A DNA stretch of 64,000 nt, from contig JAYXKI010000018.1 in the NCBI GenBank assembly GCA_037892935.1, positions 124,001 through 188,000 of the forward strand, given 5' to 3'. Below are positions 3,664-59,105 of the stretch, one piece after another (the stretch's first letter is position 1; every line of letters begins with the position of its first letter). Position numbers and translations under genes: made by a program. The notes below the pieces were generated by a model. It worked only from the letters and a program-made list of their open reading frames with translations. It was not told where the DNA came from and made no database searches. This stretch comes from Phlebopus portentosus (lineage: Eukaryota; Basidiomycota; Agaricomycetes; Boletales; Boletinellaceae).

Positions 3664-4302
3664 TAAGGTAGGAAAAGTATAAACTCGACCAACCTGTCAT
3701 ATGTGACTGATGACCCTGACAGACCCTGATTTAACCCGATTTAGAAGGACCCTGCAGCAAAAATCTGAGGTCTGGTTGACCCAACCCAGGACTTTTGTTT
3801 TATTTCCCTTGAGACTCATGAATTTTAAGCTCTGCAAATGTAGATTAGCTTCCTAGAGCTGGTTTGAAGCCTTTGTTTAGCTACTCTATGCTTTTCTGGT
3901 CTTTCAAGTAAAACTACTTGATCTGGATATGACAAAGCTATTACAAATGTATGACAAATGTATGATAAATGCAAGTTTTACATAATAATTTTGCACATAT
4001 AAGCAGCAAAAATCCAAGTCGAAAAATTTCAAGTTGTGCCAAAACGTGCAAAAATGACATTCTGAGTAAATTTATAAAGTCAGGGTTCTTCCTTAAATAG
4101 GAAGCTCAAATAGCCTTATTTTTAGGAAATAAGACCAACAAAATGTAGGTATGGATACCCCCTACAAATGTACGCAGTCAGAATTTTCATTTGAGGTGTT
4201 GTGTTGTGTGTATTTCTGTTGAAGTGTTGTGGGAGGGTAGATGACCAAATGGGGTAAGCGCGTCGCGTCACGGTTGGTCGGGTTTATACTTTCCCTACCT
4301 TA
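3664..4302. mobile_element. Non-autonomous TIR element (MITE-like), TA target duplication
   Basis: A 635-bp AT-rich block (3666-4300) is bounded by 29-bp terminal inverted repeats matching at 27 of 29 positions. The left end is 3666-3694 (AGGTAGGAAAAGTATAAACT...) and the right end is the reverse complement of 4272-4300. TA flanks both ends (3664-3665 and 4301-4302), the target duplication typical of Tc1/mariner. There is no coding capacity inside. Assignment to Tc1/mariner rests only on the TA duplication. Confidence 0.7.
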
Positions 4303-4494
4303 ATAATACTAGTACTTCTAGCCTAATCGGTACATCACTCGCGTGGAAAAAGAGAATCACGTAACAGTAGTAATTTACTTAGGAAGAGACTGCGATCCGG
4401 AGGTTTTCCGGATTGACCGGATCATCGCAAGAAGAGCAAGTCGGCAGCTCGGCGACTGGTTGACCTTAGTCACTCCTTGGTCCTGGTGGACCGA

Positions 4495-5192
4495 GCTGTT
4501 GAAGGACCCCCGGCAATCCCGATAAATGCCTGTGCTCGATCCGGCCATGAGGAGCCGAATTTTGGCCCTTAGGCCTGTGGCGTTCCCGGCCATTTGGGCC
4601 GCAAAAATGGATGTAGGCCTATGCAATTATCCGGCCATCGGACCCGGGTATGCGCGATAATCCGGCCATGGGAGGGTCTGATGGGTGTGGTGATCCGGAG
4701 TTATTGGTCAGCCTAGCCTGCCCAATTCGGGCAGTTATACTATGTGGCCGAACGTGAGGAGTCGCGACATAAACAAGGAGGTGTGGGAGTAGCTGACCAT
4801 ATATAGTTTTTGTATTGGACCATGTAATAGAGAATATAAGTCTTAGTTTTCAAGATTACGAAATCTTGTGTCTCAACTCAAACCAAACCAAATCTTATGC
4901 TTGACTTGAAGAAAAGAGAGTAGATGTAGTTCATTCCGTATAGTACATTTACATTGTCAGTTCTCACCTCTACATGCATAAATTCATGGGAAATCCGAAA
5001 AATATCCAAATCGGGACGCTGATCCCCAGTTTTGGAGGCCTGTGCCGAAAATCCGGCCATAATGGACCCAAATCCACATAGGCTCATGCCAATCCGGCCA
5101 TCACGGGCGCGTTAGCGCCCGGAGCGATCCGGCCATGAGAGCCAATTTTCGCAACAGGCATCTATCGGGATTGCCGGGGGTCCTGCTGTTGA
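4495..5192. mobile_element. hAT-like MITE with 8-bp target duplication
   Basis: The element is 4503-5184 (682 bp). Its left end AGGACCCCCGGCAATCCCGA is repeated inverted at the right end, with about 31 bp of near-perfect match. It is flanked on both sides by GCTGTTGA (4495-4502 and 5185-5192), a perfect 8-bp target duplication as expected for the hAT superfamily. The motif ATCCGGCCAT occurs three times near the left end (about 4539, 4629, 4663) and three times near the right (about 5051, 5092, 5127), like the subterminal repeats bound by hAT transposases. No transposase is present. A 95-bp relative lies at 42749-42843. Confidence 0.88.
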
Positions 5193-5316
5193 CCGCCCTT
5201 CGTAGATCTAGATTCAGAGGTTTAGTCTGGTTTTGTGCACTGATGGATGACCAACTATTCGGCTCGCCCTTAGCCCACAAGGTTGGTGGACCGGAAAAAC
5301 TGAACCACCTTAGTCC

Positions 5317-5336
5317 CTACGGATAAGCATCCACTG
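5317..5336. repeat. Solitary terminus of another MITE family
   Basis: TACGGATAAGCATCCACTG here matches the ends of the TIR element at 37796-38234. No partner end was found upstream, so this is probably a truncated copy. Confidence 0.35.
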
Positions 5337-5427
5337 CTCTCATAAGCAATCAGTCCTTTTACATAAATCTGTCGCTCAGTGCGTACATATTTAAGCCCTC
5401 CGTCCTGTCCTGTTCAAGCGCCATCCC

Positions 5428-6440
5428 ATGGCGGAACTGAAACAGCCTTCCTTTGAGCCCCCGCATTCTTTGCCTGTCCTCGTAACACAAATGTCTCTGT
5501 CTGAGAATGGGACAAGGGATGTACTCCTTGTGAACGAAGAACTTCCACCGGTCCATCTGGCAGCGAAGCTTGTCATCAGGCCCGATACGCCTCCGTCCAT
5601 CGCGTCTATTCCGGAAAGTTCTCCGATTGACGTAGGATTGAATACGCCTCCACCTAGGCCTGTTGCGCCTCTGATCTCTATTCGCCAAAAGTTTCCATTG
5701 GGCAAGGACGAATGCAGTGCGCCCATAAACTTAGCCCGTCGGGATAAAGACATATTTCGTTCCTCGTCGCCCGAAGGCTCTGCAATGTCGGAATTCTCGA
5801 TTCTTAGACAGATTGCGAAGCCTCGTGGAGAGCCTGGGCGTCCTCAGAGCGGCGGGTATAATGTTGAGAGTGCGATGGGCTGGGAAAAATCAGAGTACGA
5901 TGGGTTCAGGGTGCGCAAACTCTGTCAGCGGTCTCACGTCGCCTAACTTATCAAATAGAAAGGAGTCGTGACGCTTGTAAAGGCACTCCTGGACGAAACA
6001 AAAACACTCACTGAACAGGATCCATCACAAATACGTGAGGTCCGTGGAAGGGTGAGACTTCTCAGTTATCCATCAGACCATATGGTGACTCGCTTTAGGC
6101 CTTAAAAATGTTCCCTAGGTTGCTCGCATTCGAGGACGAGTGGCCAGTGATTGACGTGGCCAAAATTCACCTCCAACACTCTGCTGCAAAGCATAGGAAA
6201 GCGGAGGCAATTGATGCGCTTAGCAAAGTCATCGTGACTAGGCGATCAAAGGTCTGTGTGCTATGGGTGCTATATTATAGAACTCACCTTTCCTTCGATA
6301 GAAAAGGGTCCAACTTCCAGGTATTCGAGAGGGATCCTAGTTGTTCCCCGCCATCCTGTTCCGATATACTAAGTATACTAAGCGCTGATACTCCCCACAT
6401 TCCCGGTGTCGTATTGAGTCTACTTAAGAAGAGTGAATAA
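5428..6440 (+). CDS. Hypothetical protein, three exons
   Basis: Exon 1 is 5428-5910, intron 5911-5958 (48 nt, GTGCGC...ATAG), exon 2 is 5959-6051, intron 6052-6098 (47 nt, GTGAGA...TTAG), and exon 3 starts at 6099. All three join in one frame with no stop until 6440; a further intron near 6250 is possible. The N-terminal 125 residues are proline/serine-rich. The rest carries GWEKSEYDGFR, then a helical block with TLTEQDPSQIREV, then FEDEWPVIDVAKIHLQ. I recall similar Trp/Asp-rich segments in Agaricomycete hypothetical proteins, but no function is known to me. The clean splice frames argue that it is a real gene. Confidence 0.6.
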
Positions 6441-7097
6441 ATAGCTGCAGTGAAGGGGCTGGTCGTATGGTATTCCGACGGATACTTCGTTACAGCAGAC
6501 TCGTATGTCACTTCCTGATGCACATAATCAATGTACACTTAGCGTCTATGCACTTTTCCTAAGACGTACCCTTTCCTTTCCTTCTTTTGGAACCTTATCC
6601 TCTCCGTTATCCCTCCCTTGTTCGTTTATTCGTGCATCATCATTCATTCTGTTCTTTCTCGAGGACGTGGACTTCGACAGTCGTGCCGTGTGCTATCAGG
6701 TGATCCCTCTTGGACAAGGATAATGTGTGTGATTGCTTTCATGGGATACCAAGACAAAGTAAAGAAAGCTCGGTATTGGATTACAATACCCCTACCTCCG
6801 AGCCGCCTGTTATGTAATGTCGACACTGTTCTGTCCGTCACGGCCTGCTACACGAATGCTGTAGTTATGTATCTAGTTCGAAATGGTACGTCCTCTAGTC
6901 CTCACAAGGACGACTACTGTATGACACCGAACTCATCTGTCTATTCAAGATCCAGGAAAGAAAGGACCTGGACACATTGGCCCGCCAGCCTTTTGTTGTC
7001 GATGTAGCATCGCCTTCGGGCCTCCTTTGCGGCACATAAACTGAGTGCCTGAATAAAATCTGATCCCGGTCACACGAGTTCCTGGTTAAGTAGAAAT
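6441..7097. other. No gene recognised
   Basis: Several overlapping open frames exist on both strands (for example 6618-7007) but none has a recognisable motif or splice support. The stretch may include the 5' region of the kinase-like gene that follows. Confidence 0.35.
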
Positions 7098-7130
7098 TTG
7101 CCATCATTCAAGTCCGACATGGCCACTTCT

Positions 7131-8264
7131 GAATCATGCGAAAATACAAGTCCTTTGCTCGTCACGGTAGTTGTATGGAAAGACCAATATGCGATGTCTG
7201 AATCTTGTGGATATCGTCTCCGTCAGCCGTACAAACCCAACTGGACACTCTTGATTTTCGATGAAAGGAGCATCGTTTCGCTACGAAGACTACCGCTGGT
7301 GTATTGTGAGTACTATTTTGTATTGGGAAATACTCGCTGACTTCTGCCTCGATAAAAGAATGCCCCATAATGGGTTTCCCCATGATAATTGCGGATGGCC
7401 GAAGGGTCTTCCTTAATCGGGTGCGGTCCGACAGCGATGAAATTGACATTCACTGCTTCTTCTCGCAACCAGACAAACTTAAGGATCCACACAACTATAC
7501 AGAGCCTCTCCTTGATGCAGTAGCTGATGACGAGGATCCAAGCTTCACCTATATGGTTCTTCCTTTGTTGCAAAACTGCTTTGGACCGGAATTTCACTTC
7601 GTTGACGAGGTTGTGGACTTTCTTGGGCAGCTTTTACAAAAATGTCAGTCCAAACCGACGTTTTATCCAACCGCATAACTCTGGCAGCGTTGAATCTGCT
7701 GCTCCGGAACTGACCGAGAGTTTTACAGACTGAATGACATGATGGATGCTTATCCATTGTATCCGAAAGGCTTTCATCCCACATTCGACGCATCTGGCGC
7801 CAAGATCGCACTCCGAAGCGACGCCGGGACGTTGGGACAGGACCAGAGGTACCTGAGATATTGTAAGCGTGTCATACGACCCGTTCTTGACGGTCATCTT
7901 CATCATCGGAAATTTGATCAGAAAAGAGTTTCTGAAGGTGTGTAATCCGTCTTTACATGCAACGGTCACGGAATGAGATCCGAAAATACAGGAAATTGAA
8001 CTTCCTGGAATCTCTACTGGACGACACGCTGGAACCGGATCCCGGATACCGATGCGACTCTATTCTGGCCAAGGCGATGTTCGAGCGTATAATAACCGAG
8101 CAGTCGTGGCTCACTTCGCTGGAGACTCAAAAAGAAGGACTCGGGCCCGGCTATACACTTCTTCCAGGACCTCGGAAGGACTTACGGAGAAATCCTCAAC
8201 GTCTCGAAGGAGCTGCTTGGTGACTCGGAGTTATATGCCTTTCATGCAATTTCTTCGTGACTGA
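7131..8264 (+). pseudogene. Decayed fungal protein kinase-like gene
   Basis: Successive fragments match an Agaricomycete kinase-like family. RLRQPYKPNW occurs near 7220, DGRRVFLNRV near 7390 (N-lobe lysine strand), then a hinge/helix block around VLPLLQN and VDEVVDFLGQLLQ to about 7645. MMDAYPLYPKGFHPTF starts at 7739, then a DPF...IIGNLIRKEFL remnant near 7880 in a shifted frame, then FLESLLDDTLEPDPGYR at about 8000. The catalytic-loop HRD expected before NxMMDA reads DRE here, and an in-frame TGA lies at 7691 just upstream. No catalytic activity is expected. Frame changes and stops support a pseudogene rather than a functional pseudokinase. Confidence 0.55.
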
Positions 8265-8413
8265 CGTTGGGCCTGTAATACATTCACATCGACAGTTTTG
8301 TAGAGCCCTTCTTCACCTTGAAAACCCACTTCGAACCAACGACATTGACTCTCTTAAGTACGTGTCGAACTTCCCACATTTCAGCGGCTTCCAAAGCTCT
8401 CAGCTCCTAGCTC

Positions 8414-9231
8414 CTATTTTATAGCGTTCTCCCATAGGGGCCATTCTGGTAGTTCTCTAACCTCCTGAATCGTCCTCGGTTCAACAGGTTCCTCAAGGTC
8501 CATCATTGCGGCGAGGGCGCATTCCTCATCAAAGTCATCCTCCCTCTCGTCGGTCACTGTAACGGTGTTCGTTCGCATTGCTCTCGGGAGTTCACCACCG
8601 CCAGCCATGACTCGCCTTACTCTTTTCGCGCTGAGCACTGTCGTCTGGCTGAGTTGGGGCCGCTTTGTCTTGGTGAGCATCAATTGGTTCGGAATTTCGC
8701 AATCTGTTTGATGTTATGGCAATTGCTCTTGCTCCTCCTCAAAAAGCTCTAACTCGGCGGCTTCAGGTGAGAAATAGACACTTCTTCCAACAGATACGCT
8801 TTTGCCTTTGGGGCAGTAGAGCCGTTCGTGCTAAGGTCGTAACCAAGCCGTCGACCTTCCCAAGTGCGTTTATCAAGCTTCGAACGGGTATTGTCGTGTA
8901 CCCAGCACTTTGTACCCCATTCTTGCAAGTCTGCAAGATTGGGTTTCTGATTGGTGGGTGCCTCATAAGGAGTTTCGCCGCCTAAATTCTTTGTTGACGG
9001 TCTGCTCTTCAACCAGATAGGATGCTTCACGCATTCGGCCCATAAATTATTCGGAAAGCTGCTTGCGTGTAGCATGGTTCGCGCCTTCTCCCCAGTGGTC
9101 CTGTTCAAACGTTCCGCAACACCGCTGTGTTCGGGCGTGTCATGTTTGGCGAGTTTCTGTTCAGTTCCTTGCGAGTTCAAGAAAAACATTAAACGCATCA
9201 AATATAAATCCGAGACACGTGCCCGAAGCAT
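8414..9231 (-). pseudogene. Ty1/copia pol fragment (integrase end to start of RT)
   Basis: The minus-strand translation contains the copia integrase core tail: HDTPEHSGVAERLNRTTGEK, then ARTMLHAS, LWAECV, and GGETPYEA. The integrase C-terminal domain (WGTKCWVHD, RRLGYD) follows. Downstream, after one stop near 8730, comes RTIQEVRELPEWPLWENAIK, the start of the copia reverse transcriptase region. The catalytic RT, RNase H, gag and protease are missing and no LTRs were seen. The homology stops abruptly near 9200, where an unrelated plus-strand ORF takes over. Confidence 0.8.
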
Positions 9232-10105
9232 CTCTGGGTCGGGATTTCATCGATTTGGATTCCAACAGATCATCCTTCTCATCGTGCAGCTGGTGGCATT
9301 TCTCTCGATCACGTTGTATGACTATGGAATCTGCGAGCGCCGGAATCGAATTTTTGGGTCCGCATCTCAGATGTTTAGGCGAGCGAGGAGGAGAGAGGCT
9401 GGTAATATGGGAATGCGTGATACGGCTCAGCAGAGACTCGCAGACAGGCCTCTCGTAATTCGACAAAGAAGCAGGAACGCTCCGCACGCTGGAGGGCAAG
9501 CCAATAGATCTGAGTGGATCGCGAATATTTCCGCTATAGTCATCGTTTGGTCGATTCTCGTCATGAATACTGAGCTAACTATTACACGGAACTATTCTGT
9601 GGGTATGCGACAGTTCGTTTGGGGCCCAGGACAGATCTCGGCGATGGCCCTTCTGGTTGTTCCTGTAACTAGTCTTGCTAAAGTCATTGCCGTGAGATAC
9701 CGGGTCGACTGGTTATGCTATCTTCTGGTGGCAGAGGAGATACCTCATCCATTGCGTCCTCACGCGAATGGCATGGATGATCGCCAGGAGCAGGGCTTGG
9801 TGTCCCATATCACGGAGCAAGAATCATTTGAAGGCGACGAAGCCAATTTTCAGTCATCAGCTTTTCACTCGGACGCAATGACTGGCCAACAGGCGGAGCG
9901 TAATGGAGAGAAGGCTTTCGAGAGAAATGACGTAATACTTGTCTCTTCGTCTTCGATCAAAAACGCTCGCACTACAAGAACAGGGCTCATCACGTCACCC
10001 ACTCTACGAAATAGTTTGTCCAATAAAAATGAGGGATTGTACAAAGGGGCCCAGGATGGGTTTTCGCGAGTCTCACAGATAGCAAAAAGCGGACAACAAG
10101 AATGA
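9232..10105 (+). CDS. Membrane-protein fragment, 5' end lost next to copia remnant
   Basis: The open frame runs from 9074, but its first ~50 codons are antisense to the copia integrase fragment, so the genuine part begins about 9230. It has a hydrophobic helix (QQIILLIVQLVAFLSITLYD), a basic loop rich in arginine, a second helix (ISAIVIVWSILVMNTELTI) and a third (ISAMALLVVPVTSLAKVIAV). A hydrophilic tail of about 120 residues follows, ending at TGA. The NTELTI(R) motif after a helix is familiar from Agaricomycete multi-pass proteins of unknown function. Upstream exons were not found, so it is probably a truncated gene. Confidence 0.45.
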
Positions 10106-12060
10106 AATAAGGGGAAGTTGGAAATCTAAAGATTTGGAGCGAAGTTGAGGGAGAAATACATAAGGAAATTTAAAGCTGTCGAAAAGGAAAGAAAATGCTT
10201 ACGTTGTTTCATTTTTAATTTTCATTTCGTCTCAAAAAATTCCAGATATCTTCATCGGTGTCAGCGATCCGTTCTGAACGGAACGATGTTCTCATTCCTC
10301 GTAGTCCAGTCCTCGTATTTCCGTCGAGTCGACAAGAATACTCTTCCCTGTCGAAACACATTCACAGGCCAAAGAGACTCTTGTCGTCAACAAGCTGGCC
10401 CCGTGAGCCGCCGGATGAAGCGCCAGGTCTAAAAGCAATGTCGTCAACACCACATCAACATGAGAATCACTCATTTTCTCACTGGGCTTGGACTTGGACC
10501 AGGCCGCTAGGCCTGCAGCTTGCGTTCTTGCTATTCAGACCCCATCGACGATACTTTCAACATCTTTGTGGAAGGCCGACTTTGTCGAGAGCAACACTGC
10601 CAGTTGTACAGGGGGTGGTTCAGATCGGCATGTTTACTTTCCTTAGATGGTGTGCAAATCACTTTCCCAAAATGGGGGTGACGAAGACTTAGAGGAACCA
10701 CCTGTAATAATAGCTTGATTACATGTTCGAAGGCATTAGCTAATTTCAACCTTGGCATCTTGTTGCTTCCTGTCTGTCCCCGATGCACGTGACCCAATCG
10801 TGGCGACGAACTTGGAAAAGTGAAGGTCACGCGACGGATGTCCATCTTCTTCCCGAACACCGGACGTGTTGGGACCACGGACCCAAATTCGAACCGGGAT
10901 GACAGAAGCACGAAACCAGGATGCTTCTTGGACGTTAAAATACCCCACTGCCAATGAAGATGGGGTGAAAGGGTCACATAATCGACACCAAATCCCTTTC
11001 CTCGACATGATCTGTGTTGCGTAGCAAGTGACCATATATGTTCTGATCGACGTTGAGAGCTCAATGAGGAAATCTATCGACTTCATTCCCTTGCTGTGAT
11101 TGCTTAACGTACTGCACTGCACTGTTGCTTTTTCATCTCCCGATCTGCTTCATATTCTTGTATTCTCCCACCGTCAACAACTCGAAGCTCCAAGATACAT
11201 TTCATTTCACCAACGGCGGCATCTGACACGCGCTCTAGTCGTCACGTTGATCCGTTAGTACGGAAGTCCTATGCATTTATTCGTTTCGATTCGTGTTAAC
11301 AGCCACGTTGCACCTATTGTCTCCAGATAAATGGAGTCGGTACATACACCAAACGACAATGACGAAAGCAGCTTCTACGGTTATGGTCGTTTTTGCTCAA
11401 GATTCTTCCAAACCATCGGACACTTTCTTGCATCCGCGTATCCACTCATGAAGAGCTTACTATGTTTGCACCAAGTAGAAGAAAGCAGAGAAATGGTATG
11501 AGGAGACACATTTTCTAAAGGTAATACTTTCGCTGAACTTGCCTGCCAATCCTGACACAAGAGCTTTGCAGTTCACGGACATGCTATGGACATGACGATT
11601 GTTCAGCATACAAAGTTATCCTTAAAGAGCTTGCTTGTATCGATTCTCCCTGCTTTCCACGGTGTATCCTTTTTGCTTGCTGCATGCATCACCAGAGATT
11701 AATCTTGCTTACTTTTATCTCGAATAGTACAAATAGTACTGCCTAGTCCTTCTAGTCCAAATTCATGCACCTTAGTTTATGTAATATCAAAGAATATTTC
11801 GCGATCGAAATACTTCATTTTAGGAAGGTGATCGTCGCGTGCTTCAGCTCGGTTTAGAGTCTTACTGCACTTCTACAGTACAATTCCACGTAGGTTTTGC
11901 CTGTTGTGAAGAATCAAAGATGATTTTATGCATCTTCATGACCTTTTCTTGTTATGCACTGTATTGATGAACATGGGGCAGGCCCAGGAATCTAAATTTC
12001 AAGTAAGAGATCTACCAAATCACCAAAATGGTATGAAATATACTTAATTCTGTGTCACCG
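10106..12060. other. No confident gene
   Basis: Open frames at 10258-10692 (+) and 10531-11122 (-) have no recognisable domain, and 11120-12060 is AT-rich with no useful ORF. A 96-bp MITE-like unit lies within (10609-10704). Confidence 0.4.
10607..10706. repeat. Short MITE-like unit, TA-flanked
   Basis: A 96-bp unit (10609-10704) starts CAGGGGGTGGTTC and ends GGAACCACCTG, imperfect inverted repeats flanked by TA on both sides. Its right half recurs at 38295-38336 with about 90% match. Too small to code. Confidence 0.45.
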
Positions 12061-12074
12061 GGAGGCACGGGCCC

Positions 12075-12245
12075 TTAGCTCCGTATATGGCGTATAAGCC
12101 GTAAACGTCAAAATTTCAGACCTTTGTATACGGATACGGGCGTATATATACGACCCGTATATTTTGCTCTTATTGGATCATACGGATACGGCCCCATCCG
12201 TATACGGACAGCCCGTATACGGATTATACGCATACGGCCAGAGCC
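12075..12245. repeat. CGTATACGG-rich palindromic repeat, copy 1
   Basis: About 165 bp are saturated with CCGTATACGG-like palindromes and end in imperfect inverted repeats beginning TTAG. A second cluster of the same kind lies at 28995-29147 in the opposite orientation. Probably a small TIR element with no coding capacity. Confidence 0.5.
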
Positions 12246-12735
12246 GGCTCCTAATAGTGAGATGATTCTCTTTGCTTGTTTATCAAATCAAGCTCACCAT
12301 CTCAAGCATCAGCATGCGCGACCCAGGAACGATATCAACGCTCATAGAGCATGCCTCGAGATTGCTTCAGACTTCCTCATGCCTTCCCTGGTTGATTGGC
12401 ACCCGAACAATGTCGTTGATCTATGGCGTTGACTGGCCCGTTTGCCTCGCACTAGCAGCAATGCTTCCCGGAAGTTCGCCCCTTTCATCACGATCAGGTG
12501 TATCCATATCTTTGATATAAACCTGGATCGTCAGCTGATGGTTGGCTAGGTGCTCTCGAATGGATCCTGGATCGTCGTGATTGCCTCACGTGCCCCTCGA
12601 ATAGACCCGTTCTGCGTTCGTACCCTGCACTCTCGCTCGGCATTTTCGATACTTGCTGGTATCTCACGGACCGGATCTAATAGAGTCATGTTCTTCTATG
12701 GCTCCGAATTCGACTATAAGAAGATAAGATTGCTT

Positions 12736-13200
12736 ATAATACTGTTGACGTCAGTTGAATGGCCTGTAGATCTTCATCTGGAGGTAGCGCTGTCTCCTGT
12801 AATTGACTCAGTTCAGATACCCTTGATTGCAGGCCGAATACCGCTTTTGTAAGGCGTTCTCTTCCTTCAGGTTCGCTTCGACATTCTTCGTCTTTTTAGG
12901 CTCGACTAGGGGAACGTCACATTTGGTAAGTGATTTGGAAAGCTGAGTTGCGAACTGATCAGTAGGCTTGAACTCGCTCGGTTTGCTTTTTGATGCGCGA
13001 GGGCTGGCGTTCAAATTGGACAACGCCAAAATTATATCTTCAAGTTCAGCAAGAACTCCAGCAAGAGCACAATCAAGATTTCCAATTCACCTTGGGTCCT
13101 GGCGTATTCAGCATAAACTTCGGTGAGATCCTGCCATTCTTCTGCATGCGGTTGATCATTGAAATGCTCGGACTACAGCTGAGCAAGATACCGGAAGGGA
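12736..13200 (-). pseudogene. Frameshifted remnant of a coiled-coil protein
   Basis: The minus strand reads EEWQDLTEVYAEYARTQGEL in one frame, then after a one-base shift near 13075 continues LDCALAGVLAELEDIILALS and a Ser/Lys-rich stretch. After a second shift near 12865 it continues LTKAVFGLQSRVSELSQLQE and stops. The pieces read as one helical protein broken by two frameshifts. I could not assign the family. Confidence 0.4.
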
Positions 13201-15029: not shown

Positions 15030-15365
15030 GTAGATCATCACATACCCGTACTGCGCAGCGCAAGAGCTTACATACAATTCGGGCCACCTCTCGTAGACAT
15101 CAGCAAGCCGATCGATACGAGAGCGCTACAAGGTCACCGTAGATGTATCCCGAAAGCCGGCGCGGGGGGACGGCGAGTGATAAGGCGGGTATATTGCTGG
15201 AACAGATTGACTGAGGAACTCTGGAACGCATATTGGTGGTGGTGGTCGGCAATGGTATTGTCACAGCGGGCAAAAACCGGTTTCGGCAGTGCTGCGATAA
15301 CGGTCGAAAGTAGGAATGAAATTAATAATCGCGTCAATGATTGCGTCAGCGTCGTGACTTATTAT

Positions 15366-15815
15366 CACAGCAGGCAAAGGTCGGTTTCGGCAGGGCCGCG
15401 ATAACGAGCGAAAGTAGAAACGAAATTAATAATTGCGTCAATGATTGCGGCAGGGTTGTGACTTATTGATGCAACGTGCCTGTCGGCTTTGTTGAGACAA
15501 TAAATTGCGTAATTGATTGCAAAAGGGGTTTCGACCTATCTGAGATTACAAATTGCAACATGTTTGCCACGGAAAGGGAAATTTGAAGTTGCGTCACGGT
15601 GGCAATTTATTAAGTCACTCGCGATTTCCCCCTTTGTGAGATTTCAAATGTCACACTTGACGCGATTTGTAATTTCGCCACCGGGTGGGCGATCAGTGGG
15701 CGATCAGCGGGTCGTTCCGCGGGCGATCACCGCATCCAGTGGGCGATCAGCGGTCCGTTCAGTGGGTGATCAGCAGGCGATCACCACATTCAGTGGGCGA
15801 TCTGCGGGCGATGGG
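15366..15815. repeat. Left TIR of inner element with GGGCGATCA subrepeats
   Basis: About 450 bp inverted relative to 18425-18888. The distal 330 bp is unique sequence (TTTGTGAGATTTCAAATGTC motif). The proximal 110 bp is a degenerate array of GTGGGCGATCAGC-like units. Confidence 0.9.
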
Positions 15816-15875
15816 ACGCATCAATTTCTTGTCTTCTTGCCACCGTCATCCTCCATCCTGTCTTCCTTCACCGTC

Positions 15876-15912
15876 CCTGCTTACTTTAACGACTCGTAAC
15901 ATTAGGCAACTG
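15876..15912 (+). other. HSP70-derived patch fused upstream of SMC1 cargo
   Basis: Bases 15876-15896 are identical to the reverse complement of 31281-31301, where they encode PAYFNDS of HSP70, and similarity continues for about 15 more bases. The same patch is present, more eroded, in the outer copy near 19310. It sits exactly where the SMC1 homology begins. Confidence 0.5.
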
Positions 15913-18161
15913 CACGACCTTAACAGATCAAGGCCATGAAGTAAAGCAGATGAGAACCTAGTGGTCGAGATCACACGCATAGAATCATCCCTGACTCTAG
16001 TAAAAGATGACTTGGTATGCTTAACGTTGGCTCCTTTGTCAGGGTACTGAGGGGTGACCTCCAATTCCCCAGGCTGCTTTGACCTCAAGTCTTAAAGGCA
16101 AGCAGGATGAGCTGCGACACATCAAGAGCGAAATGAAAAAGAAGACGCCGGAATTGAAGTAGGTTCGCGCCTTGTGACACAATGCCATTTTGAAAGTATT
16201 GAAACAGAATTTACAGGCCAAAGCGAATCACGCTGCTCTGGTCGAAAGGATAGAAGCTTTGTCCACAGTCGTCAACAAAGCGGAGGATGAAATATTCGCA
16301 CGATTCTGCGCACAAATTGGCGTGGAAAACATTCGGGAATACGAATCGCGGCAGCTGAAAGCCGCGAGTGAGGAGGCTGCGGCTCGTAGGCGTTTCGAGA
16401 CACAAACTGCACGTCTTACCCATCAGTAAGTTTCCTTTTTTTTATAGTTTGCCGTGAAGATCGGACGTACTGAGTGACGCCCTCAGGTCGCAATTCGAGG
16501 AACAGCAACTGGCAACGCTGCAAGAGCGCCTTGCAATGCTTGACACCGCTATAAATGCCGAGCGCGCAGCTATTAAGAAGCATGAAGCCGAAAAGCAAGC
16601 AGTCCAGGAAGAAATTGATCAGCTTCAGGAGTCTATCCTCGAGCTTCAAGAGGAGCTCAAGGAACTCAACGAGGTTTTAGAGACTAAGACGAAGGAACTT
16701 GATACCGTCAAGAAGAACACCGCTAGAGCGTCAAAAGTCCTTGACCATGCTCTAAAGGAAATTGCTTCGAAGGTTGGAATAAGCATGCGTTCCCTATAAC
16801 ATCGTCTAATCATATGGATCTAGAATGACGAGATTGAAAAACTTGCTCTGGAGAGATCGTCTATCTCTCGAAAGTGTCGGTTGGAAGAGATTAAACTTCG
16901 TCTCGGATCAGGCAGCTTAAAGAACGTTCCAATTGAAGAGGTGAGTTTTGGCTCGATTTCCCGTCGTACAATCAGTTCTCATTGCTTTCTGTCACTCACT
17001 TCGATGCAGAATCTTCGAGAAGAGGTGACAATGGACATTGATGACGAAGACGGTACACAGAGGCCTCGACGCGTCCCTGATTACGGTATTGAGGTGGAGT
17101 TTGACTTACTGGACGACGAGGAGCGAGAAGTATGTACAGTCAAGTCCTTTTCATGTATGAACAATGTCCGACGAAAGTCGTTCAGGATGGATCAGCAGAG
17201 ATGGGATCAACGTACGATTCGTCTATCACCAAGCTTAATACAGAGATCGAGCGCATGGCACCGAACATGAAGGCAATGGAGAGGTCAGGTAAATCTAGTT
17301 CTTAATTAAGGACATTCACGAACGTCCGGATGTAGACTGGACGATGTTCAAACCAAGCTGCTGGACACGGAGAAAGCGGCTGAGAAAGTCCGCAAAGAGT
17401 CGAAACGCGCTCGGGACGAATTTAATGATATAAGAAAGCGAAGGTAAATATTGTAACGTGGTGAAGCTCAATCTTGTTTATAATGACTTGTCTTCTGCAG
17501 ATGCGATCTTTTCAACAAAGCTTTCACTCATATTTCGGAGCGCATTGATCAAATCTACAAAGACCTTACGAAAGGGAAGGCTGCGCCAATGGGCGGTGTT
17601 GCTTATCTGAGCCTGGAAGACAACGAGGTTAGTCGATGAATTTTGTATCAGAAGAAGTTATTTGCTAAGCTTTGCACGCAGGAACCGTTTGCTGCTGGCA
17701 TTAAGTACCATGCGATGCCTCCGATGAAGCGATTTAGAGATATGGAGCAGCTCTCGGGAGGAGAGAAGACTGTCGCTGCTCTCGCATTGCTTTTCGCTAT
17801 TCACAGGTATCCCTTTCTTCATTGTTCTCACGAACTTTTCCTTACACTCTTTTCACCCGTCACTCTAGTTATCAACCAGTCCCTTTCTTCGTTCTTGATG
17901 AGGTTGATGCAGCACTCGACAATACGAATGTCGCCAAGATCGCTAATTACATCCGTTCCCGGGCGTCTGGCGAGTTCCAGTTTATAGTCATTAGTTTGAA
18001 GAATTCCCTGTACGAACGAGGCAACTCGTTGGTAGGTATCTACCGTGATCAGGAAGTGAACAGTTCCAGCTCCTTAACATTAGACGTAAGTGACTTTTTA
18101 TCATACCACTCGCAAAATTAATGGGGAATTTCTCTTTCAGCTCACACAATATGATGACTGA
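15897..18161 (+). pseudogene. SMC1 3'-half fragment, inner copy
   Basis: This encodes the post-hinge coiled coil and C-terminal ATPase head of the cohesin subunit SMC1 over about ten exons separated by short introns. Blocks in order are ADENLVVEITRIESSL (about 15945), LVERIEALSTVVN (16236), an Ala/Glu-rich coiled coil (16490-16770), and RRVPDYGIEVEFDLLDD (17070). Next come RCDLFNKAFTHISERIDQIY (17500), the signature motif [11 protein letters not shown] (about 17752), and Walker [13 protein letters not shown] (about 17890). It ends LTQYDD-stop at 18159-18161. The N-terminal head with Walker A, the first coil and the hinge are absent. TGA at 15937-15939 and TAG at 16160-16162 interrupt the 5' part, while the head-encoding exons look intact. 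Retained introns show capture from genomic DNA. Confidence 0.9.
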
Positions 18162-18424
18162 TTGCCGTGAACTCTGCTGAATCACCGCACACTCTATTTA
18201 TTCTATCAACCCTTGCTGTCATAATCATAAATGTAATAACAATATGTAGCTTGTACGAATTCCACAACATAAAATGGGCATACGGAGTAAATGTGATGAT
18301 CAATGCAATGCGAACGTGAACAGCAAATAGAAGAGAAGACAGCATAGAACAAAGGAAACAACTAGCACTAAAATTACCAGCAATGAAAGAAGTTGAGATG
18401 AGATTATATGTAATAAATTTCTTT

Positions 18425-18888
18425 CCGCCCGTTCATCGCCCGCCACATTGATCGCCCAGTGATCACCCGCAGATCACCTGCAGATCGCCCACTGAATGTC
18501 CCGCTGATCGCCCACTGAATGCAGTGAACGGCCCGCTGATCACCCGCTGATCGCCCACTGATCGCCCACCCGGTGGCGAAATTACAAATCGCGTCAAGTG
18601 TGACATTTGAAATCTCACAAAGGGGGAAATCGCGAGTGACTTAATAAATTGCCACCGTGACGCAACTTCAAATTTCCCTTTCTGTGGCAAACATGTTGCA
18701 ATTTGTAATCTCAGATAGGTCGAAACCCCTTTTGCAATCAATTATGCAATTTATTGTCTCAACAAAGCCGACAGGCACGTTGCATTAATAAGTCACGACC
18801 CTGCCGCAATCATTGGCGCAATTATTAATTTCGTTTCTACTTTCGCTCGTTATCGCGGCCCTGCCGAAACCGACCTTTGCCTGCTGTG
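18425..18888. repeat. Right TIR of inner element
   Basis: Inverted copy of 15366-15815, with the GATCGCCCAC array proximal and the CACAG-type terminus distal. Near-identical to the left TIR. Confidence 0.9.
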
Positions 18889-18891
18889 TAT

Positions 18892-19245
18892 GGCAACGTG
18901 CCTCTCGACTTTGTTGAGACAATAAATTGCGTAACCAGTTGCGAAAGGGGTTTCGACCCATCTGAGATTACAAATAGTAACGTGTTTGCCACAGAAAGGG
19001 AAATTTGAAATCTCGGCAAGGTCGCGATTTATTATGTCACACACGATTTCCCTCTTTGTGAGATTTCAAATGTCACAACTGACGCAATTAGTAATTTTGC
19101 TACCAGTTGCACTCGGGTGAGCGATCAGTGGCTGCTCAGCGGGCCGTTCAGCGGGCGATCACTGCATTTGGTGGGTGATCTGCGGGCGATCTGTGCAGTG
19201 GGCTGTTCAGTGGGCGATCAGTGTGAGTGAGCGGGCGATGGGTGG
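18892..19245. repeat. Outer element left TIR, part after the inner insertion
   Basis: Continues the outer left TIR begun at 15262-15365. It is inverted relative to 21775-22130 and contains the GGGCGATCA-type array. Confidence 0.85.
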
Positions 19246-19309
19246 GATGCGTCAACTTCTTGTCTTCTTACCACCATCATCCTCCACCCTGTCTTCTTTC
19301 ATTGTCCCT

Positions 19310-21508
19310 GCTTACTTTAATGGTCCGCAACATTAAGCAACTGCGCGACCTGAACAAATCAAGGCCACGAAGTACAGCAGATGAGAATCTAGTGGCCGAG
19401 ATCACACGCATAGAATCGTCCCTGACTCTAGCGAAAGATGACTTGGTATGCTTAAGTCGGCTCTTTTGTCAGGGTACTAAGGAGTGACTATTTATATCAC
19501 AGGCTGCTTTAACCTCAAGTCTTAAAGGCAAGCAGGATGAGCTGCAACACATCAAGAGCGAAATGAAAAAGTAGACGCCAGAATTGAAGCAGGTTCGCGC
19601 CTTGTGACACAATGCCATTTTGGAGGTATTGAAACAGAATTTACAGGCCAAAGCGAATCACGCTGCTCTGGTCGAAAGGATAGAAGTTCTGTCAGCAGTC
19701 GTCAACGAAGAGGAGAATGGAATATTCGCACGATTCTGTGCACAAATCGGCGTGGAAAACATTCGGGAATACGAATTGCGGCAGCTGAAAGCCGCGAGCA
19801 AGGAGGCCGCAGCCCGTAGGCGTTTCGATACACAAATTGCACGTCTTACCCATCAGTAAGTTCCTTTTTTTTACAGTTCGCCGTGAAGATCAGACGCATT
19901 GAGCAACGCCCCCAGATCGCAATTCGAGGAATAGCAACTGGCAACGCTGCAGGAGCGCCTTGCAATGCTTGACACCGCTATAAATACCGAGCGTGCAGCT
20001 ATTAAGAAGCATGAAGCCGAAAAGCAAGCAGACCAGGAAGAAATTGATCAACTTCAAGGGTCTATCCTCGAGCTTCAAGAGGAGCTCAAGGAACTCAACG
20101 AGGTTTTAGAGACTAAGACGAAGGAACTTGATGCCGTCAAGAAGAACACCGCTAGAGCGTCAAAAGTCCTTGACCATGCCCTAAAGGAAATTGAATAAGC
20201 ATCCGTTTCCTATAACATCATCTAATCATGTGGATATAGAATGATGAGATTGAAAAACTTGCTCTGGAAAGATTGTCCATCTATCGAAGGTGTCGGTTGG
20301 AAGGGATCAAACTTCCTCTCAGATCATGCAGCTTAAAGAACGTTCCGATTGAAGAGGTGAGCTTTAGCTCGATTTCCCATCGTACAATCAGTTCTCACTG
20401 CTTTATGTCACTCACTTCAATGCAGAATCTTCGAGAAGAGGTGGCAATGGACATTGACGACGAAGACGGTACACAGAGGCCTCGACGTGTCCCTGATTAC
20501 GGTATTGAGGTCGAGTTTGACTTACTGGACGACGAGAAGCGAGAAGTCAGTACTGTCAAGTCCTTTTCGTGTATGAACAGTGACACTGACGGAAATCGTT
20601 CAGGATGGATCAGCAGAGATGGGATCAACGTATGATTCGTCCATCACCAAGCTTAATACAGAGATTGAGCGCATGGCACCGAACATGAAGGTGATGGAGA
20701 GGTCAGATAAATCTGGTTCTTTATTAAGAACATTCATTAACATCCGGATGTAGACTGGACGATGTTCAAACCAAGCTGCTGGACACGGAGAAAGAGGCTG
20801 AGAAAGCCCGCAAAGAATCGAAACGCGCTCGAGACGAATTTAACGAAATGAGAAAGCGAAGGTAAATATTGTGACGTGGCGAAGCTTAATCTTGCTTATG
20901 ATGACCTGATTCTGCAGATGCGATCTTTTCAACAAAGCTTTCACTCATATTTCGGAGTGCATTGACCAGATCTACAAAGACCTTACGAAAGGGAAGGCTG
21001 CGCCAATGGGTAGTGTTGCGTATCTGAGCCTGGAAGACAGTGGGGTTAGTCGATAAGTTTTGTATCAGAAAGAGATATTTGCTAAGCTTTTCATGCAGGA
21101 ATCATTTGCTGCTGGCATCAAATACCATACGAAGCCTACGATGAAGCGATTTAGAGATATGGAGCAGCTCCCGGGAGGAGAGAAGACCGTCGCTGCTCTC
21201 GCATTGCTTTTCGCTATTCACAGGTATATCTTTCTTTGTTCTTGATGAGGTTGATGCAGCACTCGCCAATATGAATGTCGCCAAGGTCGCTAATTACATC
21301 CGTTCTCGAGCGTCTGGCGAGTTCCAGTTTGTGGTCGTTAGCTTGAAGAATTCTCTGTGCGGAGGAGGTAACTCATTGGTAGGTATCTACCGTGATCAGG
21401 AGGTGAATAACTCTAGCTCCTTAACATTAGACGTAAGTGACTTTCTATCGTACCACTCGCAAAACTAACAAAGAGTTTCTCTCTCAGCTCATGCAATATG
21501 AAGATTGA
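19310..21508 (+). pseudogene. SMC1 3'-half fragment, outer copy (more degraded)
   Basis: Same cargo as 15897-18161, starting at an ATG-like MVRNIKQLRDLNKSR and ending LMQYED-stop. Damage includes TAG at 19572-19574 and a 13-bp deletion after KEIE (about 20192) that removes a splice donor. The signature serine is changed (LPGGEKTV at about 21167). A deletion of about 69 bp between short CCTTTCTT-type repeats near 21230 removes an intron and the residues before FFVLDEVD. It is non-functional as SMC1. The divergence between the two copies gives a relative age: this one is older, which agrees with the nesting. Confidence 0.9.
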
Positions 21509-21774
21509 TTGCCACGAACTCAGCTGTATCACCACGCACTCTATTTATTATATCAACCCTCACTGTCATAATCATAAATGTAATAACAATATGTAGCTTG
21601 TACGAATTCCACAACATAAAATGGGCATACGGAGTGAATGTGATGATCAATGCAATGCGAACGCGAACGGCAAATAGAAGAGAAGACAGCGAAGGGCAAA
21701 GGAAATACCTAGCACAAAAATGACCGTCGATGAAAGAAGTTGAGATGAGATTATATATAATAAAATTCTTTCCA

Positions 21775-22224
21775 CTCATTGCCCGCTCACTCACACTGAT
21801 CGCCCACTGAACAGCCCATGGATCGCCCACAGATCACCCACCAAATGCAGTGATTGCCCGCTGAACGGCCTGCTGAGCAGCCACTGATCGCTCACCTGAG
21901 TGCAACCAGTAGCGAAATTACTAATTACGTCAGTTGTGACATTTGAAATCTCACAAAGAGGGAAATTGTGTGTGACATAACAAATCGTGACCTTGCCGAG
22001 ATTTCAAATTTCCCTTTCTGTGACAAACACATTGCTATTTGTAATCTCAGATGGGTTGAAACCCCTTTCGCAACTGGTTACACAATTTATTGTCTCAACA
22101 AAGTCGAGAGGCACATTGCCATAATAAGTCACAACCCTGACACAATCATTGATGCAATTATTAATTTCATTCCTACTTTCAACCGTTATTGCAGCACTGC
22201 CAAAACTAGTTTTTGCCTGCTGTA
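21775..22224. repeat. Right TIR of outer element (CpG-depleted)
   Basis: Inverted copy of the split left TIR. Differences from the left arm are mostly CG to TG or CA, as expected for deamination of methylated CpG or a RIP-like process. Confidence 0.85.
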
Positions 22225-22227
22225 TGT

Positions 22228-29414: not shown

Positions 29415-31340
<1,926 letters not shown>

Positions 31341-31499
31341 TCATGAATGAGGTGGATGAAGCAGGGACGGAGATGATTTGTAGGTGCTGGGGGTGGATAG
31401 AGTGGCATGACAGTACTAGTGGTGGCAAGAGACAAAGAGGACGACACGTCAAAATGCATCTAAGTTCGTCTGACACTCGTCACTCGCACGCGTAGAGAT

Positions 31500-39233: not shown

Positions 39234-41529
39234 CTATTGTATCCACATATTTATGCATGACCAATCAAAATCTTCCTCAGCGAGGTGAAAAAGAACTGTC
39301 CTCTGAGCAGGACCCTGGACACTGAGCCAATTGTCGTTATAAAAGGAGAGCGGAAGATTCAGGACCGGCTCGCGAGAAGTCTCTTTGTAGCCTCGCCTTT
39401 CCCTTAATACAGGCTTCGCTCCCCGTCTGGAGTAGATGGTACGGTCAGACCTATGGGAGTCAATGTGAACCAAGAGAGTGCGAATGTTTCTCCGCCAGGG
39501 CATCGCCTTGACTCGTGTACCGGAAAATCCGTCGTCAGGGTCACTTTCGTCAGAACTCATACCCGCCGGCCCCAATTTCTCGAGCACGTCCTGCGTTTTC
39601 TTCCACCTCCTGCTCTCTTCCTCATCGTTCAACCTTTCACATTGCCTGACTTTTGCCTCGACGATGCGCAGTCGTGACCTATATTTCTGTAGGGTGATTA
39701 ACACATAATCGGAATAACCAGAAAATCAGTACTCACATTGTGTCGTCTGGAGTTCCGCCTAGCTCTCGTCAATCCTTCGGTATAGTGCTTTGTCACCCTG
39801 TCGTCCACCTCCTTCGACGTTTCAAATGACTCGCCGTCGGATTTAGGCTGAGCTTGTCCGTTCTTCCATTGGGCACGGATATTCCTGAGCCTATTCTTGA
39901 TAGACCGAACCCAATCGGACTTCGTAACCCCTAGCTTTATCGCTTTCTCCCTCCTCATGACTTTGTCAACCAGAATTCGGATGACCTCTTTGTTCCATTC
40001 CGAGGCAAGGGTGTCGCGCATGTCGACAAGGGGTCGGGCCTCGTCTGGACCACCTGCACCGGTACGATTGAAGGTTTCAACTAGAATGGGGTCGGCAGTG
40101 GCACAGAAAAGAAAATCCAGGACCGTCGTCACATTATAAGTTTCCCTTATGACCTTTCTGATGATACGCTGAGGGATCATCAGCCAAAAAAAAAAAAATG
40201 GTTCAACTTTTATGCGCTGACATTTTTCTTGTCTTTGATTCGCTTTCCGGACCAACGACTCTGTGCTTTTGTCTTCGGGACATTTTCTTCGTCTGTTTCG
40301 TCTTTGTCGGTCTGATCGAGGTCGAAGTGGTCTTCATCGCCAAGCTCCGCCCCGTGCTGCTCTATTTGATCGTCAGCATCGTAGCCATCATCGTTGCTAT
40401 TGTCAACCATTGAAGTCCTCCTCTTCCTCAGCTGTCCATCTCTGATTCTAAAACGTTTGTGAATGAAGCTCAACACTTATATGTCAAAGAATAGTCCTCT
40501 CACCGACGTTTCGTGTCTCGGACTCATCACAACCCCCGAGCACTTCGCAGTTCTCCGGCTTGATGCCTTGTTTTTAAGACCGCTCTCGCCTTGTTTCTCC
40601 TGCGTTGGTGTCTGCACCGTTCGCCCCGCTGCATTTCCCCTCTGCGACCGTACGTCAATTCTATCTTTTGATGTCGTGATTTCTGATGAGTTAGCAAGTA
40701 GAGTCTGCGGAGATGATTCGGAAGCGAGCAGTATCTGACGAACTGGGAGAGTCAACAACTGGCGCTTGTCAACCTCAAGCGACGTGGGGAGACTTTGAAG
40801 AAGCAGGTCGTCACCGCGCTGTCGCCACGAAGCCTCTGTTCGCATTGTCTCACCGTCGAGACGCTAGAAAAAAAGAAGTAAAGCGTACCAAATTCATCAG
40901 CTCAACTTCGAGGCCATTGATTCGGACATCCTTCTGTCGGAGGATTTCCATCAGCTGTGCTTGACTGGTACTAAGTTGTTCTAACTGCATCGCCAGTTGC
41001 GAGACACGGCTGATTATGGCCTGCGATGACTCAGACGGACTACTCGATGTTGATCGCTATTCTCATAAATCCAGGCTTGAAACGAGAGATGATGGAAATC
41101 TCACCTTCGAAACTGTACTCGCGTCCCGTAAATTCGACTGTATACGCTTACTTTCGCCCGCCCCAGGAGACATCTAAGTGTAAAGCCCATCAGTCGCACA
41201 TGTGGGAACTTATCGAATGACAGCGAGGTCTAACAGATGACACAGGGACTATCATTTCGAGGTCTTGCTCCTTTTAAGTTTTGGGTCTGTCAGTCCGTCT
41301 GGTCCGCTGACCATAGCCAATCAGGTCAACTCACCGTCAAGGCCATATCCACATCCTCGTCGGGGTATGCCACGACGCTTGCCAGACTAGCAGCTCTGAA
41401 TGCACCCGGTACAGGTTCTGCGCAATCGTGTGATCTTGTCGAGTTGACGGGAAAGAGAGGTGAGGATTCATTGCCGGATTTAATTGGGACTGTGGAAGTG
41501 TGGTCCGGGGTGAAAAATCGAGGAAGCAT
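39234..41529 (-). CDS. Multi-exon hypothetical protein
   Basis: Starts at ATG 41529 (MLPRFFTPDHTSTVP), 32 bp below a TATA box. Supported exons include DEDVDMAL up to a GTGAGT donor (about 41340) and a coiled-coil exon (QLAMQLEQLSTSQAQLMEIL, about 41010-40889). One exon from 40865 to 40491 follows (RLDGETMRTEASWRQRGDD start). Next is an acidic exon with DDGYDADDQIEQHGAELGDE, then RIIRKVIRETYNVTTVLDFL to RRNSRRHN. The last exon, YRSRLRIVEAKVRQCERLND, contains GPAGMSSDESDPDDG and VKAMPWRRNIRTLLVHID and stops at 39234. The 53-nt intron before RIIRK and the one before KYRSR are clean phase-0 joins. The MSSDES...MPWR motif recurs in Agaricomycete proteins of unknown function. The exons between 41340 and 41010 are not settled. 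Confidence 0.6.
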
Positions 41530-52920: not shown

Positions 52921-53378
52921 TGTTAGGCGGACGGCTCAAGGACTGAGTCGAGGCAGGCCAACACAATAACAAACAAGCGCGAATGAGATAATCCCAAATA
53001 CGTCGCTCAGGTCAAGACAGCTAAGACAAGGCTTAAGTCCAGACCGTCGAACGCTATGTCAAAGTGAAGGTAAGTAGAATTCAGTAAACTATTAATACAA
53101 GAGTAGATACCTATGTCAAAGTGAAGGTAAGTAGAATAGAAAGACAAGGAACGAAAGAGTCAAACTATCTACTTATATAGACTTTGAGCGTGGGAAAGGT
53201 CTACCCTAATGGGAAGTCACATGACAAGGAATGGGATGATTAGTGAGCGTGATAGAACATTGTGGAATGTTCCGGCAAAAGGATGAATAAGCACATAAGA
53301 AAAATAAAAGAAAAGAAAAATAATATTAAAATAAATGATGACGTCAGAAAAGAAAAGGAAAATGTTCGAGTCCTTACA
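52921..53378 (-). repeat. 3' LTR of the gypsy element
   Basis: 458 bp. On the minus strand it begins TGTAAGGACTCG and ends GTCCGCCTAACA (TG...CA). A duplicated 30-bp motif ending AAGTAGAAT lies inside. Confidence 0.95.
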
Positions 53379-58689: not shown

Positions 58690-59105
58690 CTTGATAGGCT
58701 GGGGGTGGAACGGGGATCGGGATGCTGTTCGGGCGGGACCGACTTCGGATAACCGGCTCGTCTTTGAAATTGATGACTAAACGAAAGGCTCCAAGGTAGA
58801 TAATGAAGGAGATACTTGTCGACGACTGGACTCTATGCGTTACCCATGAGAAGGTTTGATGGGAGTTCCAGAGAAGGGTGATTTGGAGCGCCACGGTGAT
58901 GTGATTGGTTGATACTTCGGGTACTATCGGGTCACGTCGGAGTCAATCAGACTTCGACGGGCAAGATAGGGGTTTGTTGTCTGCACGGTAGGAACCAGGT
59001 TTCGTTCGATGTCGTCCTTCGAAGATATACTTCAGGGGACACGTCACAGGCAAGCGCTCGACGACAACGGAATCGGGTGTGAGCCAGAGGTAGGTCTTTC
59101 TATTA
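58690..59105 (-). other. Gypsy 5' leader with candidate primer-binding site
   Basis: Untranslated leader between the 5' LTR and gag. TGGCTCACACCCGATTCC (59069-59086) starts with TGG as a tRNA 3'-CCA complement should and lies 19 nt inside the LTR. The tRNA is not identified. Confidence 0.5.

Follow-up and report, generated by a model that had tools for sequence, protein, structure and literature searches.

Nested copies of a CACTA/EnSpm-type element carrying a captured 3' half of SMC1, probably re-templated in part from living genes

The window analysed here, a stretch of 64,000 nucleotides (C18:124001-188000) from a fungal genome of 38.4 Mb in 23 contigs (designated C1, C2 and so on), contains two transposable elements with terminal inverted repeats (TIRs), one inserted into the other and both loaded with the 3' half of SMC1, a cohesin gene. 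With a probability of roughly 0.82 both are copies of a single non-autonomous element of the CACTA/EnSpm type, whose SMC1 fragment was captured once and later partly re-templated. We propose that the element would have taken up the fragment a single time from DNA and that the transposase of larger, TIR-matched relatives would move it by cut and paste, producing 3-bp target duplications. Living SMC1 genes would then partly re-template the cargo by ectopic gene conversion, after which the copies would decay unselected. Judged by its SMC1, which shares 94% identity with its counterparts in Sanghuangporus baumii and S. vaninii and 85% with the Fomitiporia mediterranea one (the query containing some mis-spliced residues), the host is a Sanghuangporus-like bracket fungus.

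Structure, copies and empty sites

The initial annotation, made from the sequence alone, had described two elements of ~3.5 kb with long TIRs, CACAG-type ends and TGT or TAT duplications, the inner one lying in the left TIR of the outer. This description was confirmed down to the single base (Table 1). The inner TIR arms pair over 417 nt at 95% (15366-15782 with 18472-18888), and those of the outer element at 94% (18889-19191 with 21821-22123) and 89% (15263-15365 with 22121-22223). A search for the 25-bp terminus with at most 3 mismatches gave 31 matches in the genome and 0 for the reversed control.

At least 50 TIR matches were found in the genome, and a second TIR query led to the same places. 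Since the best candidates alone were scored (40 of 56 for either TIR query), the copy numbers are lower bounds. The TIRs are thus not confined to the window, a point on which the initial annotation had made its reading depend. The cargo query yielded 33 matches at 21 places, namely ten inner-type copies, ten outer-type copies and the resident gene. Counting the two in the window, these places represent seven insertion sites, because the window block is segmentally duplicated in about ten near-identical copies (on C7, C12 with three, C13, C15, C16, C18, C20 and C21). Window positions 11801-12800 are matched at 10 places, their own included, at 100% after rounding, and positions 40001-41200 at 9 places at 96-100%. 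Several copies of the block are located near contig ends; it looks subtelomeric, and the near-identical copies may stem from an assembly artefact. The nested pair is present at five loci, one of them the window, and was counted as a single insertion of each element since these loci share their flanks.

Uninterrupted outer copies with a length of ~3.44 kb are located at five loci (C12:801384-804820, C7:28240-31676, C16:47705-51140, C15:84843-88279 and C13:1439275-1442711). In the C12, C7 and C16 copies the two halves into which the left TIR is divided in the window meet directly, overlapping in 3 bp. The uninterrupted copies are the empty site of the inner element, and they verify that its removal together with one TAT restores the outer TIR. 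The terminal base of the outer element (22224) is A in all five nested copies, including that of the window, and G in four of the five uninterrupted ones.

Matching triplets flank six of the seven insertion sites: TAT at the window inner element and the C4 copy, TGT at the window outer element, CAA at C8:1506735, CAT at C8:1556614-1578220, where the element is split by ~18 kb, and CAA at the C6 copy, although its first 84 bp are lost. Both termini together with matching triplets are retained at five of the seven. No flanks longer than 3 kb are shared by the C4, C6, two C8 and C15 copies with the window or with one another. The claim that an SMC1-loaded element has moved at least twice is therefore borne out by seven insertion sites with various target-site duplications.

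Some copies have themselves been interrupted. An insert of ~18 kb (C8:1557428-1575581) splits one SMC1 element and one of ~1.8 kb splits another (locus L030, 3724-5549); the cargo halves at these two split elements overlap by 5 and 9 bp. In the C8:1506735 copy (within C8:1503000-1512999, locus positions 3736-8345) the right TIR is broken by ~1.1 kb.

Resident gene and capture

The sole cargo match without TIRs, C7:314415-316572, is SMC1, open to its stop codon and with all splice sites kept in the examined stretch. The captured part extends from about resident residue 698, just past the hinge, to beyond the stop codon and comprises introns and 3' flank. As annotated, both elements hold these post-hinge exons and introns with different lesions. 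Because introns are retained, the fragment was captured from DNA. Inner and outer cargo have an identical left breakpoint and an identical filler at the right junction, and five further inner-type insertions match the inner element at both junctions with 0-3 mismatches. The shared junctions in every copy checked argue for one DNA-level capture. The ~90 bp just inside the left TIR are common to elements carrying no SMC1.

The outer cargo is a mosaic

For comparison of the cargo, the inner copy, the outer copy (C12:801384-804820) and the resident gene were aligned in donor coordinates, i.e. those of the reversed resident SMC1 locus (L031); relationships were tested with FastTree and site counts. 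In donor 3891-5520 (1615 sites) the inner copy has 99 private changes, the outer 12 and the resident gene 11. These numbers become 13, 36 and 11 in donor 5521-6064 (473 sites), and 11, 9 and 16 in donor 6065-6301 (237 sites). The difference between the first two stretches of the outer copy is highly significant (12/1615 vs 36/473, Fisher 9e-15). The window outer copy is further decayed, with 27, 40 and 12 private changes in the three stretches, and gives the same picture (27/1615 vs 40/473, Fisher 3e-11). A change-point near donor 5500 has a chi2 of 67.5, which was reached in 0 of 2000 permutations. In donor 3891-5520, six sites unite outer and resident to the exclusion of S. vaninii and S. 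baumii, and no site backs either of the other two groupings (6:0:0).

By these counts, the larger part of the outer coding cargo closely resembles the resident gene, and the remainder is of greater age. Re-templating of ~1.6 kb of the outer cargo from the resident lineage by ectopic gene conversion is strongly supported, and conversion from the resident gene to the element is the simplest reading of the mosaic. The opposite direction, damage of the resident SMC1 by conversion from the element, is unlikely because the resident gene is not unusually diverged in the near-resident stretch (resident to S. vaninii 18/386, S. baumii to S. vaninii 29/386). CpG decay was also considered as the cause of the diverged 3' part and rejected, since it accounts for just 4 of the 36 changes. 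Decay in donor 5521-6064 is neutral, with 17 nonsynonymous and 10 synonymous changes (17N:10S) and with 27/359 exon and 9/114 non-exon sites changed.

Origin of the inner cargo

The translated inner cargo and S. vaninii SMC1 differ at 13 of 518 sites; the corresponding counts are 27 of 538 for the resident protein and 35 of 538 for S. baumii. The source of the inner cargo is, by this likeness, an S. vaninii-like SMC1 lineage, whether by way of another species, of an allele of long standing or of conversion that recurred, and re-templating of the inner subfamily from that lineage by gene conversion is moderately supported. Between inner and resident, exons differ by 5.05% and introns by 11.6%, so that exon change is about half as fast, and the 29N:54S found against 56 N expected look selected. 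Such a ratio is to be expected if living SMC1 genes were where the divergence mainly accumulated.

The same subfamily is, to judge by protein residues, carried by S. sanghuang, where it is annotated as SMC1 genes. Two gene models in the public annotation, P0121 (SMC1_1) and P0122 (SMC1_3), have lengths of 513 and 600 amino acids and share S942, R953 and V1057, which are private to the inner subfamily among the sequences compared. The N-terminus of P0122 corresponds to the translation of the left TIR, so that one of the two models begins inside the TIR. A third model, S. vaninii P0128 (SMC1_3, 365 amino acids), is an SMC1 fragment without these three residues. A genome paper for these species, possibly the source of the three records, used BRAKER3 and Funannotate (PMC12001456).

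The likeness between the inner cargo and S. vaninii might instead reflect old SMC1 polymorphism, i.e. an allele that was not sampled or a dikaryotic partner, rather than movement between species. We give this explanation a chance slightly short of even. It is favored by the quartet signal of 4:0:1, or 3:1:0 with Fomitiporia, and by the comparison of one SMC1 allele of this genome with one sequence per relative. The smaller difference to S. vaninii than to the resident gene argues against it, as does the presence of the subfamily in S. sanghuang, although the latter would be compatible with common descent, too. A more far-reaching version, in which each lineage is repeatedly re-templated by the living SMC1 of the same nucleus and elements with the SMC1 of one species enter another, appears rather unlikely.

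Repeated capture, with SMC1 taken up at least twice from different lineages and no gene conversion, could also be proposed, since the outer copy is resident-like in region A, the inner one is S. vaninii-like and the two have no inactivating lesion in common. However, the identical breakpoint and filler make this improbable, and the outer cargo changes its character within SMC1, at donor ~5500, and not at a junction.

Decay and possible function of the cargo

In the inner cargo there are stops at codons 10 and 65, no exon indels, and all splice sites are kept. The outer cargo has a stop at codon 59, followed in the window copy by a second at codon 141, and deletions of 13 bp across the exon-4 donor site and of 71 bp across the exon-11 acceptor. 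As annotated, the exons with LSGGEKT, which we take to be the signature motif, and with what is presumably Walker B are both open in the inner copy.

From this, the initial annotation had considered a truncated head fragment or a source of small RNA acting on SMC1. A functional product under selection, either a truncated ATPase head or a TIR-SMC1 fusion, would fit the uninterrupted frame that the inner and C6 copies have between cargo codon 66 and the stop, with all splice sites kept, the two S. sanghuang models and the selected-looking ratio of inner and resident gene. We nevertheless regard it as very improbable. That ratio would find its explanation in divergence within living SMC1 genes, as discussed above, and the inner-type copies are mostly neutral when compared with the inner element: C6 has 8N:9S (10.8 N expected), C4 9:5 (9.5), the split C8 copy 17:6 (15.1) and C8:1506735 63:36 (63.3). 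Hence, by their substitutions, the present copies look like decaying sequence whose SMC1 frame is not under selection, and action of a head fragment or of small RNA on SMC1 is so far not supported. The 83-amino-acid TIR frame is open in one of six inner-type copies; stops are found in C6, the split C8 copy, C15 and C8:1506735, and a frameshift in C4. Since it is open in the window copy alone, it was not taken as a gene.

Camouflage of an element by essential-gene cargo is an idea found in the accessible part of PMC13317346. In C8:1506735, transitions affect 105 of 282 CpG bases and 27 of 852 other C/G, indicating strong CpG-directed decay. Per CpG they are as frequent in the cargo as in the TIR, both in this copy (100/272 vs 50/142) and in the pooled C6, C4, split C8 and C15 copies (68/1088 vs 39/546). 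With near-neutral inner-type copies and CpG decay alike in cargo and TIR, neither protein function nor camouflage finds support.

The weakest alternative, segmental duplication of both blocks with the flanking triplets due to chance, draws on the duplicated window block (10 and 9 places) and on the shared flanks of the five nested loci, but its probability is negligible: it is true of the block as a whole and fails for the relation of inner and outer element, as the five loci having the outer without the inner show, together with the C4, C6, two C8 and C15 copies, which have no flanks longer than 3 kb in common with the window or with one another.

Candidate partner and class membership

A TIR-matched relative of 29.7 kb is located at C2:2575957-2605672. 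Its two ends share 89 and 91% identity with the inner TIR, it is flanked by AAG on both sides, and it encodes a Transposase_21 protein (PF02992, E=1.2e-10), downstream of which DUF4218 is weakly matched (E=0.0087, below its cut-off). The closest relative of this transposase in the genome, on C11, is 88% identical and lies 38-39 kb from another such TIR end. The remaining matches that cover most of the transposase reach 51-59%, and a match of 36 residues on C15 reaches 61%. We infer that a transposase of the C2/C11 type would act in trans on the TIRs of the SMC1 elements. A Pfam scan of eight open reading frames near other TIR ends returned no family for any of the eight. Plavaka was rejected as the partner, since none of 36 PF18759 matches lies between a pair of these ends and PF02992 is found inside the C2 element instead; the nearest PF18759 match noticed, C16:9240-10245, is ~37 kb from an outer copy. 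Immediately outside the left end of the window, C18:121529-121927 gives a Transposase_21 match with an open frame of 565 amino acids, and equal-scoring matches occur on C12, C15 and C20.

Several features place the elements among the CACTA/EnSpm type. The termini agree with the 5'-CAC..GTG-3' pattern of fungal EnSpm elements, and the target-site duplications have 3 bp. Subterminal short repeats near both ends are a hallmark of CACTA elements, and GGGCGATCAG-type repeats (repeat families D8, D11 and D12) are present here. A relative with a TnpD/Transposase_21 protein exists in the C2 element. As in Pack-TYPE elements, a host gene fragment lies between TIRs, the parental locus is free of TIRs, and transposition has multiplied the cargo to seven insertion sites, with uninterrupted outer copies. 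Pack-MULEs have target-site duplications of 8-9 bp and Helitrons have neither TIRs nor target-site duplications; both were dismissed because of the 3-bp duplications, Helitrons also because of the long TIRs. The proposed Pack-CACTA-like family multiplying a cohesin fragment is thus substantiated by further copies with their duplications, the TIR-free resident gene and the transposase-bearing relative that had been sought as a partner.

Some observations, in contrast, weigh against the overall reading given at the outset. The termini CACAG...CTGTG deviate from the textbook CACTA/EnSpm pentamer, CACTA or CACTG, and C15:654930-660214 is flanked by ATG and AAT, without a 3-bp duplication. Both the C2 transposase and its C11 relative contain a single in-frame stop, and an active partner for the TIRs is thus no more than presumed; the TIR ends on C1, C3, C5, C11 and the C12/C15/C18/C20 set were left unread. 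Left of the outer conversion tract, just two of 82 sites separate the resident gene from both elements, and the left edge of the tract is therefore weakly placed. Re-templating of the inner cargo relies on few sites (0N:7S in region B), the quartets are modest, the signal of 4:0:1 being obtained with S. baumii as fourth sequence, and S. vaninii was compared as protein. Finally, C15 compared with the inner copy has 15N:15S (20.0 N expected, P=0.03), which is below neutral in one of five comparisons.

Features of the window

Besides the nested elements, the window contains long open frames at 53240-58776 on the minus strand with a likeness to gag and pol of a Ty3/gypsy-type long terminal repeat element. 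Two further minus-strand open reading frames, at 8749-9246 and 30941-31459, look like fragments of a Ty1/copia integrase and of Hsp70, respectively.

Table 1. Coordinates of the nested SMC1-carrying elements in the window.
Feature	Position	Strand	Remarks
TGT target-site duplication, left of outer element	15259..15261		TGT also at 22225-22227
Outer element including nested inner element	15262..22224	+	From TIR pairing, uninterrupted copies and target-site duplication
Outer left TIR, first part	15262..15365	+	Last 3 bases TAT = target-site duplication of inner element
Inner element	15366..18888	+	3523 bp, ends CACAG...CTGTG
Inner left TIR	15366..15815	+	With subterminal GGGCGATCAG-type repeats
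Open frame of 83 amino acids in inner left TIR	15648..15899	+	Homologous to N-terminus of S. sanghuang P0122
Non-captured element sequence, ~90 bp	15816..15905	+	Common to elements without SMC1
Inner SMC1 cargo	15906..18416	+	Limits approximate; post-hinge to stop codon plus 3' flank
Inner right TIR	18421..18888	-	Short filler at cargo/TIR junction, also in outer
TAT target-site duplication, right of inner element	18889..18891		3-bp overlap in uninterrupted copies
Outer left TIR, second part	18889..19260	+	
Outer SMC1 cargo	19338..21762	+	Limits approximate; stops 59 and 141, 13-bp and 71-bp deletions over splice sites
Outer cargo stretch near resident SMC1, putative gene-conversion tract	19419..21016	+	Approximate; from donor-locus 3891-5501
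Outer right TIR	21771..22224	-	
TGT target-site duplication, right of outer element	22225..22227		

Meaning and comparison with known systems

Work by Hanada from 2009 on Pack-MULEs is said to have called captured genes functional, these looking selected when compared with their parents. In the present family the inner-type copies are nearly neutral among themselves and yet their stem looks selected, and in the outer cargo a near-resident stretch adjoins a decayed one. Templating from living genes would explain both. Overwriting from the real gene may thus account for captured gene pieces that are better preserved than expected, and its signature can be searched for in any Pack family. On the far-reaching version mentioned above, the cargo would record the hosts through which it has passed, and what looks like purifying selection on genes captured elsewhere could partly be conversion from the living gene. 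With the family also in S. sanghuang, a housekeeping gene can serve as tracer in a system of several species. Moreover, public Sanghuangporus annotations include 'SMC1' genes, P0121 and P0122, that are transposon cargo.

The closest known counterparts are the plant Pack-CACTA elements, which, according to the accessible part of PMC8903248, are likewise non-autonomous CACTA-type TIR elements with host coding DNA inside, multiplied by transposition. Rice and maize CACTA elements have target-site duplications of 5 nt, in contrast to the 3 bp, CACAG ends and fungal host described here, and the present family differs further by one gene fragment at seven insertion sites and by its mosaic cargo. Animal Pack-TIRs (PMC8277862, as far as available) share the captured sequence in a TIR element, the transposon-free parental copy and, in some cases, multiple copies with distinct target-site duplications. 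Few of them are multicopy, however, and over half are located less than 15 kb from the parental copy, whereas the SMC1 elements occupy seven sites on several contigs. Fungal EnSpm families agree in their 5'-CAC..GTG-3' termini and 3-bp duplications, and the partner found here has a Transposase_21 domain; those families, in the portion of PMC12730594 at hand, encode a TET/JBP dioxygenase, while our element is non-autonomous and carries a 3' gene fragment.

Amplification of a housekeeping gene by a DNA transposon is described for histone H3 in ascomycetes, where hAT elements transduplicate the gene in Pseudocercospora fijiensis (PMC6710886) and Pyrenophora tritici-repentis (PMC3538342), both available in part. 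In P. fijiensis the original H3 is intact and the copies are inactivated by repeat-induced point mutation (RIP), comparable to the intact resident SMC1 and its inactivated copies. Apart from element type, host and gene (hAT, ascomycetes and H3 there, CACTA-type and SMC1 here), the accessible text of these studies reports no conversion from the living gene, and the term 'gene conversion' occurs 0 times in that of PMC3538342. Among the titles listed in a literature search that had most subscription papers outside its reach, none concerns fungal Pack-CACTA elements or gene conversion linking a captured piece with its parent. CACTA gene capture in plants and hAT transduplication of housekeeping genes in ascomycetes are hence known already; new here are a CACTA-type case in an agaricomycete, the capture of a cohesin gene, and evidence of cargo re-templating from the living gene.

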